A stretch of DNA of 64,000 nt from Irpex lacteus. Lineage: Eukaryota; Basidiomycota; Agaricomycetes; Polyporales; Irpicaceae. A program made the translations under genes and the position numbers. Location of the stretch: the NCBI GenBank assembly GCA_001986395.2, contig MQVO02000001.1, positions 1,116,001-1,180,000 on the forward strand. Reading direction: 5' to 3'. This document shows positions 21,153-36,058 of the stretch, piece by piece (within the stretch, counting starts at the first letter, position 1; every line of letters begins with the position of its first letter). The notes below the pieces were generated by a model. That model made no database searches and was not told the origin of the DNA. It was given only the letters and a program-made list of their open reading frames with translations.

Positions 21153-21326
21153 TGAGGTCTGTGATAGTTTTGATGGGCCGCCGTCACACGTGCAGAGTGC
21201 ATTCATTCTATGGTAGTTTCGGAGGCTTGTCTCTGGCATTCAGTGTGAACGAACGCGTATATATGCGTGCGTGAACGTTCTGAACCATGGCTAGCAGCAG
21301 CTGTCGGTCGTTTATTGACCTTCCAA
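21153..21326. repeat. Repeat copy A, left part
   Basis: The first 174 bp of a 1.44-kb dispersed repeat. It aligns with 34614-34789 (shared GAGGTCTGTGATAG at the start, TGAACGTTCTGAACC further in). The 6.65-kb transposon splits copy A immediately after this segment. The remainder resumes at 27980. Confidence 0.85.
21318..21326. repeat. Left target-site duplication, ACCTTCCAA
   Basis: Identical to 27980-27988 on the other side of the element. It is present only once in the uninterrupted repeat copy, at 34781-34789. Confidence 0.9.
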
Positions 21327-21471
21327 TAGTCTCGCAAGCCAGCCCTTCGGAGGTCGCCGTTGGCTCCTACCTATTCGGGCGGCGGAGTGCGAAAAAGACG
21401 AAACAGAGGACCCGCCCGAAGGTCTGGTGCATTTGGGAGAGAGGGAGGGTGATACGTCGTCACGTGCCGTA
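21327..21471 (+). repeat. Left terminal inverted repeat
   Basis: Pairs with 27851-27979 in reverse complement. Exact shared blocks are the outer 8 bp, 22 bp at 21378-21399 and 33 bp at 21439-21471. The innermost block holds the palindrome CACGTG. Between blocks the arms differ by small indels. The arm ends about 155 bp before the DUF6589-like start codon, so it may carry that promoter. Confidence 0.9.
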
Positions 21472-21626
21472 GACAGCTCTGTAATTTAGTGAGGCGCCCA
21501 AATTGTTGCAGCCTTCGTGAAGCGCGTCGCACGCGTTCGCTTGTACATACACCTACGCACGCGTCGACAGACCGTCGACGCCATAATAATATCGACATTC
21601 ATCACAACAAGCATTCCTTTTGTAAG

Positions 21627-24611
21627 ATGGAGCCCGTGCTTATCGAAGATTTCGACTGGGGTGAAGACGAATACCTAGAACCGGACGACGATGAACGACA
21701 CGAAGCCGAGCTGGAGGACATACAAGAAGAGGATGCGGAGGCCATGAGAAAGCCGGGGGGTCATCTATGGCGTACGACAGCGTTCGCGGCATTTCTTGCG
21801 ACACGGAGCGATGAAGACATTGCGATGAGATTGGTTGAAGTCATCGAATTCATGGCCACCAAGCAACTCGACCTTACAACGTTTATAGACTATGTGACCT
21901 GGAAACTGAAGATTCCATCACATATGAAAAGTGCAGAGGCAACTATTAGGTACGTGATATGCATTAATTATGAGTGCAGCAACCTCTTACAAACTCTGCA
22001 CTAGGGGTTCACGAACATCTCTCATGCATAGCGAACAACTCCCCGGCATCATTAGAAGATGGCATCGGCCACCTCGCAGGCACGAGTGGGGTGTCAAGAC
22101 CCAAGCAGCTAGGGCCGCTCTCGAAGACTGGGCTCTCGAGACTGTCACGGCGCGCATCAATCGTGAGATGCGCGAGTACGCTCCTAACCTCGCCTCACCT
22201 CCGGAGAGCATCAATGAAGACGACCTCCTCGCTATCAAGCTGAAGGATGACATCGTCATGATGAAGTCTGTTCAGCCAACATTCTGGCACCTCATGGATT
22301 CACTCTCGTTCACGCCGCTCCAGAAGAAGAGATGCAAGAAGAAGGACAACGAGGCGGTAAGATCTTGTTCACCCTCGCACGACAATATTAGACTGATTAA
22401 CGGTTTTTAGCGTATATTTATGATCGGGAACATACTGCACTACACGCGCTCCCAGCATCGCTGCCGCTATCAGAAGCTACTCAGCATTTACTTCAAGGCA
22501 TGCGGACTTGGGGCAAAGGCAAACGACACCACGCACCTATTCGGGCTCACGATGAGTCAAAAATGGGTCTATCGAGGAATCGAGGCTATCTCCGACTCGA
22601 ATCGACGGCGTATGATGGAAGACATCGCCTTATACGTCTTTTTCGGTGGCCATGATAACCTCAACCTCCCGTTCCGAACTTACCAGCAGCGCATCGACCA
22701 CCAGTCACGTTTCGACAACGGAACTGCCGGCACCATCTATATCATCAGAGACGAGAACGTGCAGTTCCTGGATCGCGTGGCATATATGGAACAACGGATG
22801 GAGCAATGCAACAACCCTATCACCGCTGTCGAGATCTGTCGCAAGGCTGGCGAGTTTGGCCCTCGCCTACATGCTCAAGCCGTCTTCTCAGTCCTTCGCA
22901 TCCTACTGCAGACTCCCGCCTTCGCCAGCTATGCTCACAAGGATCACGCTGTGTTCAAATCACCACCGCCGGTTCAGCAACTTCCGATTGGCAAAGAGCA
23001 TGCTACGGTCATGTACATGCTCGATACTGTGCACATGGAGGAGTCCTCGCAGGACGGTAACCGCAAGGTCTTAGAAGAGTGGTTACGGCAGCTCAATCTT
23101 GATGGCGAAAACGCTACGAAACATCCAGCCGCGAAACGCCTCATCGTTTGGATTGGCGACCAACTGACAGCGGTCCGCATTCGATACCTCAAACGCGACC
23201 GCGCATTCGATAACAATTTTGTTCAGCGATTTGAACAGTTTCTCGAAATCTTCGGGTGGTTCCACGCTCAGATCGCACAAGAGTTCTCGATGCACAAGCA
23301 GTACTATGGCAACAATCATAATCTAGGACTCTCGCATGCATTCGCAATTATGGAACGCAAGGGCCTCGCAACACCGTCTATCAAAGGCAAGTGTCTACGT
23401 ATTATTGTAATGTTACCTAGTCTGATGGGCCTCGATAGGCAATTTTCACTATACGTTCCGCGAAGCTGTTATGCATACTGCTGAGGCCCGATTCCGTGAC
23501 GTGTGGACGGTCGTTGGCGGTGTTGAGGAGCTTGAGGAGCTTCAAGATCGCACCCCGGAAGAGCTCGAGAAGCTAGCGCAGAGGATCGTTACAGAGTATG
23601 CGTCTACAGAGGCTCTAGTGAACTTGCGGGCCCCTACGCCTACCTCTGCTGGTGACGATAGCGCTCCACCACCGGCAAAGAAGAGGAAAGCGCCTGGCGA
23701 GCCACCACTCAGTAAGGAGGCTCGTGCGGAGGCGGCGAAGAAAGCACGCGATGAGAAAGAACGCAAGGCACGCGAGAAGAAGGACGACCTTTTCGAGTAC
23801 AGCGTGCAGTTCAATCGAGATCTCCTCGAGTACCTCGATCTCAATGATGCGATGAAGACTGGCGACGTTGGTCGCATGGAATATATGCTCCCCCGGCTGC
23901 TGTTCCGCTTCCATGGCGGCGGTAACCACAAGTATGCTTGGGAGAATGTCGAGCTCATGCAAGAGCTATGGCGTGAGTGGCCAACTGAGATCAAGTACGT
24001 ATACCGTTTCTGTTTGTGACGCTGGTGTTAACAAGTATATTAGGTCGCTTGTCATGAGATTTTGCTGGCTGGCAAATACGACAGGCCTCGCGGGCAACTT
24101 CCTTGCCTACGACATGGTACAAGAACACAACATACGGGATATAAAGGTATGCTTATTATACAATGATTAAAACTATATCCGTTAATGATGTGCTCAGGAT
24201 CTGTTTGCTATACATGGACCGTTCTCCTCATGGGAGTACATCAAGAGAATATCAGCTTCAATCCCAACACAGCGTAAGATCAAGAAGCACGTCGAGGAAC
24301 ACTTCAATCACTTCAAAAGAGGTCTTTCGCATACGTCTCCCGCACACGAGAAGGATGTTGCCGCCCTGCAAAAGAAGTATCGACAAACCGGTGCGCATGT
24401 ACATCGACCCGGTCGTCATCTCGCCAAGAACGATCGCGCGAAAGACTTCACGGCTAACGGAGCAAATCTCACAACCTTGCAAAGTATGATTGACCGGTGG
24501 CACAAGTCACGCGTGACGGAGAAGCGCAGAACTGATACGTTCGAGAGCGTGATGACTCTTGTTGAGCAATACAAGGAGCGGGCGGCACAAAGAGCCGGTA
24601 CTAATGACTAG
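21627..24611 (+). CDS. DUF6589-like protein, candidate transposase
   Basis: Exons 21627-21949, 22005-22356, 22411-23386, 23439-23994, 24044-24146 and 24198-24611 give 907 residues. Domains in order: acidic N-terminus (EDFDWGEDEYLEPDDDER); helical region to about 225; the DUF6589-like core from about 226, with LHYTRSQHRCRYQKLLSIYF, then FFGGHDNLNLPF (Asp307), YMLDTVHMEES (Asp430) and LIVWIGDQLTAVRIR (Asp475); a Lys-rich basic stretch near 640-690 (PPPAKKRKAPGEP, possible nuclear signal); and a basic C-terminus. The GDQLT and GHDNLN motifs sit at ends of predicted strands, as acidic residues do in RNase H-fold transposases; that assignment is inference. The start follows the left inverted repeat and fits MEPVLIEDF. 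Intron 3 has a GC donor (GCAAGT). The family name is from memory. Confidence 0.8.
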
Positions 24612-24631
24612 AACATTACTATTGTATCTAT

Positions 24632-27600
24632 TTAGTTCTCGTGTTGATGGGAATCAGAGTGTTCTGGGTAGGCAAAAGGATCATCGAGAGTCGTGTGAGA
24701 TGCTGCTACGGTAGGTGGACTTTCGGGTAATGTATGAGAGTTAACGAAATTTGAAGAGTATACAGAAGGGGAAGGATACCAAGCCATTGTATGATTATAC
24801 CATGGCGTGCTTGGCATAGCTATAGCGGTGGGCGGAGGAGTAGGCAAACCGGGGTTGGAATTTGGTGGCAGCACAGGAGTGAGAGGTGGGCGGTGAGCAT
24901 GCAGCCAAGGATACATAGTTTGGCTATAAGGCGTTGACGGAGTCGGCAGATTGTTAGGGTGTTGAACAGGCGGTGACATCACAGGAGTAGGCGGGAATGC
25001 GAGGGAAACTCGAGGTTGAAACAGCGGCAGATTGTATCGTTGAACCGGAAGCGGTGTCAGAGGAGTAGCTGGGAATGGTTGAGCTTGTACGTATCGTGAA
25101 TCGGATACTACAACACCTGAGCCACTTGGCGTTTGGATTTCCCAAGTGCCGGGAACAGGGCGAGGCTGTCCTCCGTTTGCAATTCGTGTTGCTTCACGTT
25201 CTTGACCACGTCGCACTCGTTCTTCTTCCTGCTTCAAGGGCTTCAAACGTGCTGTTTCAGCCTTGCGCGCGTCAGAGCGTTTCTTCTTCTCAGCTTCGTT
25301 ATCATCGGTCCATAGAGAGTCAGCTTTATCGATGCAGTCCAGAGCTCCAGGACCAAGATCATCGGCAAAGTGCCAGCCAGGTAACAGTTCCTTCAGATCT
25401 GCCAGTGTCTTGATCTTAGTTTCAGTAGCTAGAGTATTCAAGACGTTGTCCGGGAGTACAGTCTGCGGTGGGAAGCCAGAGTAGCGATAGTGCGCGCGCC
25501 AGTAGCTGTGTCGGAAAGTCGTCAAAGCAGTTACCACAGTAGTCTTTCGTTCGCGCGTTCGTTTCGGGGCCTGTTTTGCAGCTTGTTGCTTCGAGAACTC
25601 TTCAGGGCCAACAGGGTCCAGAATCTCGACATCTTCCAGTCTCGCCTTCAGCCGACGCATGAGATTAAGAAGAGAGACATCATGATCAGTCAGAGGACAG
25701 TCCGCGTCGGCGCCCTTCTTGGTAAGGCAGATGTCACAGCACACTACAGTCCGTTCTATCGAAATAAACTATAGTTAGCTGCAAACGCCCCCAACTGACG
25801 AATGTACCTTTCATTGGCGGATCCGGACTGTCGAAATACGCGTTCATAAACGCGGAGCGGCATTCCGTTGTGGTAATGTACTTGCGCATCTCAGGCAGCA
25901 TCTTCTTGCGTGGCTCGACGTCTGGATCTCCCTCTGCGTCCTCTGCAGGTGCATCATCACGACTACATTCTTCAACCTGCTGAGTAACGGCGTCATCCAA
26001 CTCTTGTTCCTCGTTGTCTCCGTTGCCTTGCCCGTTACCATTGTTCTGGCGCTTTCGCTTTCGCTGCGGAGGTAGAACGACTGAATCTTCTTCCTCCTTG
26101 ATTGGCACGTCTTGTGTTGCTGGTAGAGGCGCCGCATCCGGTGCCTTGGCTTGTCCTTTCTCACCTCCTCGCTTCTTCACAACCTGAAATACTGAGGGCT
26201 CGACAAGCATAAGAGCATAAGCAGGTTCCCCGTTACGCCCTCCTCGGCCCGCATGCTGAGACCATTGGAGCAAGTTGGTTGTGCTTTTGAACTGAACAAC
26301 TCGAGGGAGTCGTGGAACGTCCATACCCTGCGCAGTACGTGTCAACATCTGAATATATATGCAATATGTCCACTTACCATGCCAACAGCCTCAGTGCCAA
26401 CAAGGACTCTGACGAGCCCTTCTATGAAGAGCTTGAGCATAAGCTCCTTGACCTGCGGATCACGGCTTGCAATCACAAAGTCTATCTGCTCGCGGTAATG
26501 TGAGTCCTCCGGAAGCTGATGTACGAGATATAGCCATATATGAATGGCGGTTTCACGCTCATTGACAAAGATTAGTGTCGGGACGAGCTCCTTGCCCTCG
26601 CGCACCTCGTCTAGAACAAAGTCAAGCGCACCGAAGTCCTTTGGGCCCGAGAGGCAAGAGACTATTGACGTGATGTTGTGGCGTTCGTTTCCAAGGTTGA
26701 GAATGAACATTTGGTCACGATTGAAGGACAGCTTCGTAAGTAGAATCTCGAACATATCGGGGGGAGTGTTGCCGTGCAGAACAAGATGGGTCTGCGGGCC
26801 ATCAACGAGCGAGTCTTCTCCACCAGACCAAAATCCCGTCGGAAGTCTTCGCCCCAGTCAGGAACACAGTGCGCTTCGTCTATAACAGTAGTAACCACGT
26901 CTTTCATCCAGTCCGCGTTGCGTACAAGCTTCGAGAAGCGTGGATGTCGGAACAACATCTCCGGTGATGTTATTATCGCACGTATTTCGCCTTTCTCGAG
27001 TCTCTAATCTACCAAGTGAGTATTGAGTGGATTCAAATGAAATGTCACTGACCGTATGAAGTGCATCCGAATACGTGTCCGCATTTACTGCCTCGGAGGT
27101 GATTCCGCGAGATCGGAAGCGTGCAGCCTTCGACATTAGCGCATACAATCATTTGTAAGTAGTTATTCTCGCAAACTTGCCTTATAATACTCACCTGGTC
27201 CACCTCCAGTGCACTCAGAGGCGATACAATGATTATCTTGCTCGTCTGACTCGGGTCAGCGAGTAAGATAAGCATGAACGCCTCGGTCTTCCCTGACCCA
27301 GTACTACAGATGAGCCCAGTGTCCAGGCCCAAGTACGCTGCTTCCGCACAGTCGATCTGGTACCATCGAGGCGTCATGCCAGCGCGTTTCTGAAGCTCGG
27401 CATGCATTCGTGTTCGGGTAATTTGCTTCATATATGTGCGTGCTTTGTCTTTAGCTGCAGCATCTCGAGCGGCTTGTAGGGACTGGTACGAGTCGACATG
27501 TTGCTTGGTCTTCGGGCATGCTTCAGGTAAAATTTCGCACCCTTCTATGGTACCAGATACTTCAGCCCGGGGGGGAACAACAGCGGCAGACACGACAGTA

Positions 27601-27680
27601 GTAGGGTTACGAGTTGTTTTCTTCAGAGGCTGAGACTTCTTCGCAGCAGCAGCAGCTTTTGCGTGCGGTTTAGGAGGCAT
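24632..27680 (-). CDS. RecQ-like superfamily 2 helicase with one frameshift
   Basis: Exons 27195-27680, 27053-27127, 26378-27003, 25808-26327 and 24632-25755; 943 residues if one base is restored. Motifs: Walker A TGSGKTEAF (about 127-135), SPLSALEVDQ (motif Ia), VIDEAHC (motif II), FCTATLPP (motif III), and QWSQHAGRGGRNGE (motif VI). A Cys-containing segment (ERTVVCCDICLTKKG) follows, possibly zinc-binding. The C-terminus, some 200 residues, is Pro-rich and disordered. The N-terminus is basic and Ala/Lys-rich. In exon 3 the frame breaks in a run of six C (plus-strand G 26759-26764): TATLPP should continue DMFEILLTKL, which needs seven. The summed exon lengths also lack exactly one base. It is either a real knockout or a homopolymer sequencing error. 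Confidence 0.85.
26759..26764 (-). other. Frameshift point in the helicase
   Basis: Six-base homopolymer where the helicase frame changes between FCTATLPP and DMFEILLTKL. There is no intron signal within reach that would repair it; the only GT-AG option upstream would leave a 37-bp intron and delete motif III. Confidence 0.75.
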
Positions 27681-27850
27681 GTCGTGGGGAATAAATGAAT
27701 TAATACATAGTCATTGTCGGGGTATAGCATTAAGTTGGTATCGAGAGGAAAGAGCGCATAAACAAAAGCATGAATTAGACACTACGAGGGGACATCGTGC
27801 ATACAGCTGCTAACTAGCGCCGGCGCAATGTCGCGTCGCGTACAGTGGCA

Positions 27851-27979
27851 TACGGCACGTGACGACGTATCACCCTCCCTCTCCACCAAAGACACCAGAC
27901 GTTTGGACCGCGCCCGTTCTTGTCTTTTTCGCACTCCGCCGCCTAATCGGGCAGGTCCAAACGGCTGGTTCCGAGACTA
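27851..27979 (-). repeat. Right terminal inverted repeat
   Basis: Reverse complement of the left arm with identical blocks at 27851-27883 (33 bp), 27922-27943 (22 bp) and the outermost 8 bp. It is 16 bp shorter than the left arm through indels. The inner end is 170 bp from the helicase start codon. Confidence 0.9.
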
Positions 27980-29247
27980 ACCTTCCAAGTTCAAACGTTC
28001 AAGATCGTCCGCTGCTGATTGGAATTTCGGAAAAATATATCGCGGAGCGATACATCTGCTTCTTTTTTGTGTCGTCCGTGCGGGGGCCGACCGTTGTAAC
28101 GCGGTAAACGTCAGGAACTCGCTGTAGAACAGTGTCGGCTATGTTGTGCATATGTTTCGAACTGAGAGGCAAGCTCACCCTCATGTGAGCCCCGTGCTCG
28201 CGCGATGACCGACCTCTTTCCACTTTGACTCAGGTTGTTGCAGAAAGAAGCTTGCAGAGTAGAGACGTTCGAATTCGAGAGACAGATGGACGTCCTGGTG
28301 CAGTAGGAAGGGATCTGTCCGGAGGGGGCCATGATCGAATTTAAAGCAAGTGATCGGATCAAGATTCAGACGCTTCCATTAGACGTACGCCGGCCGACGC
28401 GGAATGATTTTGCTGGCCACACCTTGACGGCCACTGGTCAGTAGCAAGTACAGTATGTTGCTTGGCCGGAGAAAGCACGCTACTTAATGTTCTGCGACAG
28501 AAGGTCGTCTCATTTGTATTGCCTACGTGACAGAGTGTGGGGTGTCAAGGCATCAGTCTTCGGAAACTTACGGTAAATACTCAGTTTTCGAAGTTCATGA
28601 TTCAACCTTTATCTGAGTCTTACTTACATGTTGAGCACAGGTTTCTTCAGTCATATCCTCAGACCTGCAGTACGTAGTAAAAATGAACACGCTTGCACGG
28701 ATTGCGGCTTGCACTTCATCTCTTATGGGAAAGACCTAGAGCCTGTTGTCCGCGTTGGAATGTTCCCTGGTTTCACAGACACTAATTTCAGATATGTTTG
28801 CAGAACTTGGAGGCCTCTGAGGCGTACCGGGTATTCAACATTCCAACGAGTGTGTTCCATGACGGAGAGGTGATGATAATGAAGCATTATCTTCGATGAT
28901 TACTACGTGCCTTCAAAAGTTTGTGATTCTGCCTCGTAATAGTATATTCTTACAAACCAGTCTCTCACGACATGGTTCCCGTCGACAGATGCTATGGTGT
29001 ATGTCACTTCATGGCGTGCATGTGACTTAGGCTCGAAGAGGACTTCTGACAGGACTCGGAGTGCGATGGTAGAATGCCGTTGAATCGTGATCATCATCGT
29101 TAGTTGGATGTTCTTCCACACTCGATATACTGTGTATTCAAATGCTGACTTTAGTTATATTTATAGGTGTTGATTCTTAGAACTTGGAGGCTCCTGGAGC
29201 TGAGATGGCCTGAGTCGCCGGCACAAGTTTGGGTACGCACTAGAATG
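27980..29247. repeat. Repeat copy A, right part, beginning with the second target duplication
   Basis: Starts with ACCTTCCAA (27980-27988) and then matches 34790-36058 almost base for base with scattered substitutions and indels. Without the transposon and one 9-bp copy, the repeat totals about 1.43 kb. I see no protein family in it, and its outer ends are not inverted. Confidence 0.85.
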
Positions 29248-32243: not shown

Positions 32244-33224
32244 GCCTGAATCAACACTGAGGAACATTGAAAAGCTGGCTTGAAGTTGAAGTTCGAAATT
32301 GCGGCTTACTGAGCCTTTCCTCAATGTGCTGGGGGGGGGGGGGTCCGGTTTGTCATGTCCACGGCACTGGTACTTGTGCCATCGTGTTCAGACTTGTGGT
32401 CCAAATGATATTGATTTATGGATGGCGGTGCGAGTGGACCACATTGTCAGACACAAGATCAGGCTGAGCCCGCGAAGGTTGAACGTTTCTACTTTGCCTT
32501 AGGCAGACTAATCACGTCGTGGATTTCAACATGCAGTGATCGGGGCTCGGGCGTTGACGACTCGGACTCGGATGACCCGAGAAAAGGATGACCGTTACGT
32601 TACATATAGGTGGATATAGAAACACTACAAGTAGTGACACCAAGCACTGAAGCGATCATGCCACTAGTAGTGAGATGAGTGGCGAGTGTACTACTCTACG
32701 ATGTCAGTGATTCGGACACGAAGAGTACACAAAGGTCATTTACTGGTTGGCGCGATGTAGGCGCCTTGCGCCAATGCGTCAATTGAGGGCAGGCTTAGTC
32801 TCCCTAGGTATTTTGCGGAGAGTGGCGGCGTACACACGGTCGACATTCAACGTTCAAACGTCAAACGTCAAACTTCACAGGCTCAGGCTGAGTCTCTGAA
32901 ATTACGAAGTTGATGTCAGTATTATTCGACTTAGGTGGAACCATGCGCATATGACCTCGATGTGAAGCAAGTTGAACGAGGATCACTGGCACCTCACTAT
33001 TTTACGCTAAGGCTCTCCCATTGCACTTGCGGCTCTTAGCGATAGCTTTCTGTAAGCTGTATTTGCATGCCTGTCAGAGTCTGTGGTATCAATTTGACAC
33101 TTTGGCTCAGGGAGATGCCGCGGTGAGGCCCGTTGCAGGTGCCGATTCCATAGTTGATCTGTGCACTCGGGGACATATTTCTACAATTTACCATACATGT
33201 AGGCTCGTGAACCAGCCTCTATAA
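32244..33224. other. Gene-free stretch with a poly-G run
   Basis: A run of 13 G lies at 32331-32343, and short direct repeats of GTCAAAC/ACGTTCAA occur near 32850-32875. No gene seen. Confidence 0.5.
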
Positions 33225-34529: not shown

Positions 34530-34614
34530 ACATGCATATATAACACGAAGTATGTCGTGCACACACGCGTGTCTAACCTTCCCACCATCGTACTGACCAT
34601 CGTACTGATGTCCT
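34530..34614 (+). repeat. Copy of the promoter and start-codon region of the 36-kb membrane gene
   Basis: Matches 36206-36287: ACACGAAGTATGTCGTG, an ACGCG block, CTTCCCACCATCGTACTGA and TGATGTCCT, which includes the ATG of the downstream gene. Here the match ends exactly where repeat copy B begins. It has an extra ACCATCGTACTG unit and a TATATAA-like element. Confidence 0.75.
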
Positions 34615-36058
34615 GAGGTCTGTGATAGTTTTGATGGGCGGCCGTCACATGTGGATTGTATAGACTGCATACTATCGTAACGTCGGAGACCTGTCTCTGG
34701 CCATGGCATTCAGTGTGAATGAACGCGTGCATGAACGTTCTGAACCGTGATTAGCAGCTGTTGGCCATGGTCATTTATTGACCTTCCAAGTTCAAACGTT
34801 CAAGATCGTCCGCTGATTGGAATTTCGGATAAATATATCGTCGTGACAGTGGCGGAGCGATACGTCTGCTTCCTTTATGTGTCGTCCGTGCGGGGGCCGA
34901 ACGCGGTAAACGTCAGGAAATCACTGCAGAACAGTGTCGGCTATGTTGTGCATGTGTTTCGAACTGAGAGGCAAGCTCACCCTCATGTGAGCCCCGTGCT
35001 CGCGCGATGACCGACCTCTTTCCACCTTAAGCTTAACATTTGTACGCATAGGTTCAAGTTGCAGAAAGAAGCTTGCGGAGTAGAGAGATTCGAGAGACAG
35101 ATGGACGTTCAAATGGAGGGGAGCTCAGGGAGCTGTCCGGAGGGAGCCATGATCGAATTTAGAGCGAGTGATCGGATCAAGATTCACACGCTTCCATTGG
35201 ACGTACGCCGGCCGACGCGGAATGATCTTGCTGGCCACACCGTGACCTTGACGGTCACTGGTCAGTGGTAAACACAGTATGTTGCGTGGCAAGAGAAAGC
35301 ACTCCAATGTTCCGCGACAAAAGGTCTCATGTGTATTGCCTACGTGACAGAGGGTGAGGTGTCAAGGCATCAGCCCCCGGAAGCTTACGGTAAGTACTCG
35401 GTTTTCGAAGTGCATGATTCAACCTTTATCTGAGTCTTACTTACATGTTGAGCACAGGTTTCTTCAGTCATATTCTCAGACCTGCAGTACGTAGTCAGAA
35501 TGAACAAGCTGGCACGGATTGCGGCTTGCACGTCATCTCTCGTGGGAAAGACCTGGAGCCTGTTTTCCGCGTTGGAATGTTCCCTGGTTTCACAGACACT
35601 AATTTCAGATATGTTTGCAGAACTTGGAGGCCTCTGAGGCATACCGGGTATTCAACATTCCAACGAGTGTATTCCATGATGGATAGGTGATGATAATCAA
35701 GCATTATCTTCGATGATTACTACGTTGCTTCCAAGAGTTCGTGATTCTGCCTCGTAATAGTATAGTCTTACAAACCAGTCTCTCACGACAGGGCTCCCGT
35801 CGACAGATGCTATGGTGTATGTCACTTCATAGCCTGCATGTGACGCAGCTCGGAGAGGGCTTCTGATAGGAGTGCAATGGTAGAATGCCGTTGAATCGTG
35901 ATCATCATCGTCAGTTAGATGTTCCTCCACACTCCACACGCCGTATCTTTAGATGCTAACTTTAGTTATATTTATAGGTGTTGATTCTTAGAACTCGGAC
36001 GCTCCTGGGGCTGAGATGGCCTGAGTCGCCAGCACAAGTTGGGGTACGCACTAGAATG
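34615..36058. repeat. Repeat copy B, uninterrupted
   Basis: The 1.44-kb sister of copy A, from GAGGTCTGTGATAG to GCACTAGAATG. It lacks the transposon. Differences from copy A are scattered and include an inserted TCGTGACAGTGG near 34842. Neither LTR-type TG...CA ends nor terminal inverted repeats are present. It could be a nonautonomous element of unknown type or a duplicated segment. Confidence 0.85.
34781..34789. other. Empty insertion site of the 6.65-kb transposon
   Basis: A single ACCTTCCAA flanked by TTTATTG and GTTCAAACG, the same flanks that lie outside the element in copy A. Confidence 0.9.

Follow-up and report, generated by a model that had tools for sequence, protein, structure and literature searches.

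Does the pairing of a DUF6589 gene with a RecQ-like helicase gene between inverted ends mark a new kind of transposon, or one already described? The question is raised by an element in a 64,000-nucleotide stretch of the basidiomycete Irpex lacteus (assembly GCA_001986395.2, contig MQVO02000001.1, positions 1,116,001 to 1,180,000 of the forward strand), referred to here as the window (Table 1). The element is real and complete, and we find it highly probable that it is a member of the already described AcademH kind, not of a new kind.

Both termini of the window element read TAGTCTCG, from 21327 on the plus strand and from 27979 on the minus strand. The inverted repeats are imperfect, extend over approximately 130–145 bp and align by BLAST with 84% identity over 94 bp; their local alignment score was 116, compared to at most 27 among up to 500 random pairs. 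Exact copies of ACCTTCCAA flank the element, and within the window 9-mers at the element's spacing agreed by chance in 7 of 200,000 random placements. An unfilled site was also present. The right flank (27980–29247) matches 34781–36058 with 87% identity and the left flank (21153–21326) matches 34614–34789 with 75% identity, the two matches sharing exactly 9 bp, a single ACCTTCCAA at 34781–34789. Because of these ends, the exact 9-bp duplication and the unfilled site with one ACCTTCCAA, the delimitation given in an earlier note on the window proved right to the base; with two genes between the inverted ends, the element is the complete transposon that the note described. The empty site is paralogous, not allelic, and its source is host segment 34614–36058, a duplicate (75–87% identical) of the two flanks.

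Elements with such ends, duplications and gene content recur in the genome as several near-identical and many diverged copies, together with deletion derivatives that keep the same ends. In the genome surveyed (44.3 Mb, 317 contigs), a search with Pfam DUF6589 (PF20231) gave 71 matches, of which the 70 above the cut-off merged into 36 loci, and a search with Pfam Helicase_C gave 87. A Helicase_C match lay within 6 kb at 17 of the 36 loci, where approximately 0.9 would be expected. At all 17, at least one match was on the opposite strand (one locus also has a same-strand match); on contig C214, a single match is common to two neighbouring loci. The Helicase_C list missed the helicases of the window and of L042, L043, L044, L045 and L057, the last five being found with a profile of 36 helicase homologues, so that a helicase is nearby at at least 23 of the 36 DUF6589 loci. 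The remaining 13 include short fragments, and the only one examined at length (L046) is without a helicase. The suggestion that such an element accounts for orphan DUF6589 and RecQ-like genes thus holds at least partly, in this genome.

Seventeen loci were examined at length (L042–L057 and the window), and 12 of them, the window and eleven others, are complete elements of 5,525 to 7,400 bp with both genes and exact 9-bp duplications, all of unrelated sequence. The ends of L052, L056 and L057 were not preset; they emerged from a search for motifs that resemble the ends and are bordered by matching flanks, or from a search around the inverted repeat. L045 has both genes and no recognisable right end, and L046 is without a helicase; the sequences of L053, L054 and L055 were not taken to both ends, and these loci stand outside the 12. 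L042–L044, whose ends read CAGGCTCC, are approximately 99.6% identical across their main blocks, which indicates that this family moved recently. The window element also has two derivatives shortened by deletion, L033 (988 bp) and L034 (997 bp), flanked by duplications CAGCTCCTG and CGGCTTCAG, respectively. A third, L035 (2,021 bp), has both ends and no target duplication, and L036 is too decayed for its ends to be defined.

On pairwise identity, four main groups of transposases can be told apart, with one outlier. In one group the helicase gene is upstream and divergent, as seen by sequence in L052 (L058+L052) and L054 and by Helicase_C positions in L053, L055 and L014; the remaining complete elements have it downstream and convergent. 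Both genes between inverted ends with 9-bp duplications, the arrangement that the earlier note proposed to look for, are found at eleven other loci, convergent except in that one group. The closest named relatives of both proteins are from Cytidiella and Irpex. DUF6589 and helicase homologues occur as pairs on equally long contigs in Irpex rosettiformis (536,420, P0005 and P0054; 358,818, P0013 and P0058) and in Cytidiella melzeri (82,181, P0004 and P0055; 338,342, P0015 and P0051), which suggests that the two genes are linked in these species as well.

The Pfam DUF6589 match covers residues 360–815 of the 907-aa protein (E 9.9e-115), and intron 3 of the gene (23387–23438) has an apparent GC-AG donor, taken as such in our gene model. 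The earlier note had recognized the DUF6589-like gene correctly and offered no function for it. When the predicted structures of two DUF6589 relatives were compared by VIA-align, the best matches among the families listed were the Hermes (hAT) and P element transposases, at 5–11% identity in the fold alignments. Foldseek gave no match at E under 0.001, and profile A1 matched no solved structure. Hermes and the P element make 8-bp duplications and are not known to have a helicase gene. Residues D, D and E are conserved. The fit of the two predicted folds to DDE transposases makes it very probable that DUF6589 is itself the transposase. E679 of P0001 had been considered as the third catalytic residue and was dropped, being absent from L042, L028 and L030; A1 and A3 retain a D-x3-E motif downstream of it, and this motif is also readable in the following exon of L042, L030 and L052. 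Our literature search on DUF6589 and PF20231 found nothing on its function and no printed mention of a DDE transposase fold. Mushroom and polypore proteomes commonly include this family, which is listed as of unknown function. As probable transposases of helicase-bearing transposons, its annotated 'genes' become recognisable as transposon genes.

The second gene is, much as the earlier note had it, that of a RecQ-like helicase. Pfam DEAD matched in two of its open frames (2.3e-9 and 2.2e-7), while the Helicase_C and RecQ_Zn_bind matches fall under the curated cut-offs. The motor region matched Bloom helicase (1.4e-25, query residues 98–437) and bacterial RecQ (8.2e-21), and long relatives exist elsewhere, one of them being P0051 (662 aa), 53% identical over 90% of the query. 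A feature absent from the earlier account is a shift of reading frame inside exon 3, near 26.76 kb. Consequently, either the helicase of the window copy is broken and this copy is not autonomous, or a base has been miscalled there.

AcademH is said to have been described by Kojima in 2020 (Mob DNA 11:15), a paper we know through those citing it. Terminal inverted repeats are among its features, and the window element has them. In the portions of the citing literature available, mention of a RecQ helicase as part of Academ goes back to 2013 at the latest, with credit to Kapitonov and colleagues (PMC3627910), and Academ is placed among the DDD/E superfamilies (PMC9587614). AcademH makes target duplications of 9 or 10 bp and AcademX of 3 or 4 bp, which the author ties to the encoded helicase or nuclease (PMC10045372). 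AcademH occurs at low copy number in Basidiomycota, Ascomycota and Mucoromycota (PMC10799480), non-autonomous Academ elements were noticed in the basidiomycete Marasmius oreades (PMC8290104), and the parts seen of PMC12210899 and PMC9970103 only cite AcademH. The window element shares with AcademH an encoded helicase (by its DEAD and Bloom/RecQ matches, with the frame broken in this copy), a duplication of 9 or 10 bp (exactly 9 bp in all 12 complete two-gene elements) and occurrence in fungi including Basidiomycota, as judged from its nearest named homologues; a DDD/E transposase is shared by prediction, from the folds of two relatives and the conserved D, D and E. None of the checkable features differs, the comparison being one of descriptions, with transposase sequence and termini outside it. 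AcademX, assigned by the literature to the same superfamily, differs from our element in its shorter duplications and in encoding a nuclease instead of a helicase (PMC10045372). We are confident that the window element, likened to AcademH by described features, is a DNA transposon of that type with an inferred cut-and-paste route. The statement that no named eukaryotic superfamily has this pair of genes is contradicted by what these sources say of AcademH (PMC3627910, PMC10045372, PMC10799480); as far as can be checked by description, the pair already belongs to a described superfamily.

DUF6589 transposases might instead form a DDE superfamily of their own, apart from Academ, with approximately four groups in one fungal genome and a RecQ-like helicase, convergent or divergent, that was gained, like the 9-bp stagger, independently of AcademH. 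In favour of this, our DUF6589 searches connected the family by sequence to no published Academ transposase: a profile built from divergent members of DUF6589 and aimed at animal Academ gave 163 matches, and the 120 listed all carry DUF6589, their named organisms all being fungal. Nor did the literature searched contain a printed link between DUF6589 and Academ, although the original AcademH paper lay outside that search and may contain one. KolobokH, moreover, is a fungal lineage of another transposon superfamily that also has a RecQ helicase (PMC9587614). However, the account of AcademH in the citing papers agrees on every count, from the helicase and the 9-bp duplication to the probable DDE transposase and the basidiomycete relatives, and a separate look-alike superfamily is unlikely, with only a slight chance of being the correct reading. 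KolobokH itself, likewise a helicase-bearing fungal DNA transposon (PMC9587614), differs in its Kolobok transposase. All 12 complete elements examined here have 9-bp duplications of unrelated sequence. Kolobok duplicates TTAA, and we consider a KolobokH element very improbable. Least credible of all is a Helitron or other rolling-circle element, which the helicase inside the element might recall: Helitrons join a Rep domain to a Pif1-type helicase and are not known to make a target duplication, whereas here the helicase is RecQ-like, inverted ends and a target duplication are present and no Rep domain occurs among the Pfam matches, as the earlier note had argued.

For an AcademH element of this kind, we propose that the DUF6589 protein would be a DDE transposase whose predicted RNase H-like core is broken up by helical segments, and that D307, D475 and E763 may carry out catalysis. 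It would bind both inverted ends, cut the element out and insert it into target DNA at cuts staggered by 9 bp, repair of which would leave the 9-bp duplication. The RecQ-like helicase, encoded on the opposite strand, would play an accessory part, probably opening DNA at the ends or helping to process the intermediate or the repair. The complete and partly near-identical copies offer material for testing what the helicase does.

Table 1. Features of the window element (window positions) and target duplications of the complete elements
Feature	Position	Strand	Remarks
Irpex lacteus element	21327..27979		6,653 bp; imperfect inverted ends, DUF6589 gene and convergent RecQ-like helicase gene
Left target site duplication	21318..21326	.	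ACCTTCCAA; identical to 27980-27988
Left terminal inverted repeat	21327..21471	+	starts TAGTCTCG
Right terminal inverted repeat	27851..27979	-	starts TAGTCTCG on - strand
Right target site duplication	27980..27988	.	ACCTTCCAA
Paralogous empty site	34781..34789	.	single ACCTTCCAA; within duplicated segment 34614-36058
DUF6589 gene (proposed transposase)	21627..24611	+	907 aa, spliced by hand; Pfam PF20231
DUF6589 gene exons	21627-21949, 22005-22356, 22411-23386, 23439-23994, 24044-24146, 24198-24611	+	
Proposed catalytic triad, DUF6589 gene	22654-22656, 23158-23160, 24123-24125		D307, D475, E763
RecQ-like helicase gene	27680-24632	-	Pfam DEAD, Bloom/RecQ match; one frame break
Helicase gene introns	27194-27128, 27052-27004, 26377-26328, 25807-25756	-	
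Window			9-bp duplication ACCTTCCAA
L042			9-bp duplication CATCTAAAA
L043			9-bp duplication TGGCGCAAT
L044			9-bp duplication GAGATAGAC
L047			9-bp duplication CGGTGCGAA
L048			9-bp duplication GACGTGGGC
L049			9-bp duplication CCGTCTCGG
L050			9-bp duplication CACCAGAAC
L051			9-bp duplication ACGTCAGCA
L056			9-bp duplication CTTACGCCG
L058+L052			9-bp duplication CACACAAAT
L059+L057			9-bp duplication ACTGTAGGT

Sequences resembling the ends were also seen elsewhere. At 33200–33217 of the window lies a transposon-end-like sequence with two mismatches, for which no matching partner with a duplication was present up to 12 kb to its right. A 754-bp stretch (L038, 512–1265, G000:C264) has the same end on each side, and its flanks are mutually inverted over the 20 bases shown; it therefore looks like a long palindrome without target duplication. 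Two miniature copies, L039 (457–538, 82 bp) and L040 (524–604, 81 bp), have both ends almost back to back; between the 9-mers on either side there is one mismatch in L039 and there are six in L040.
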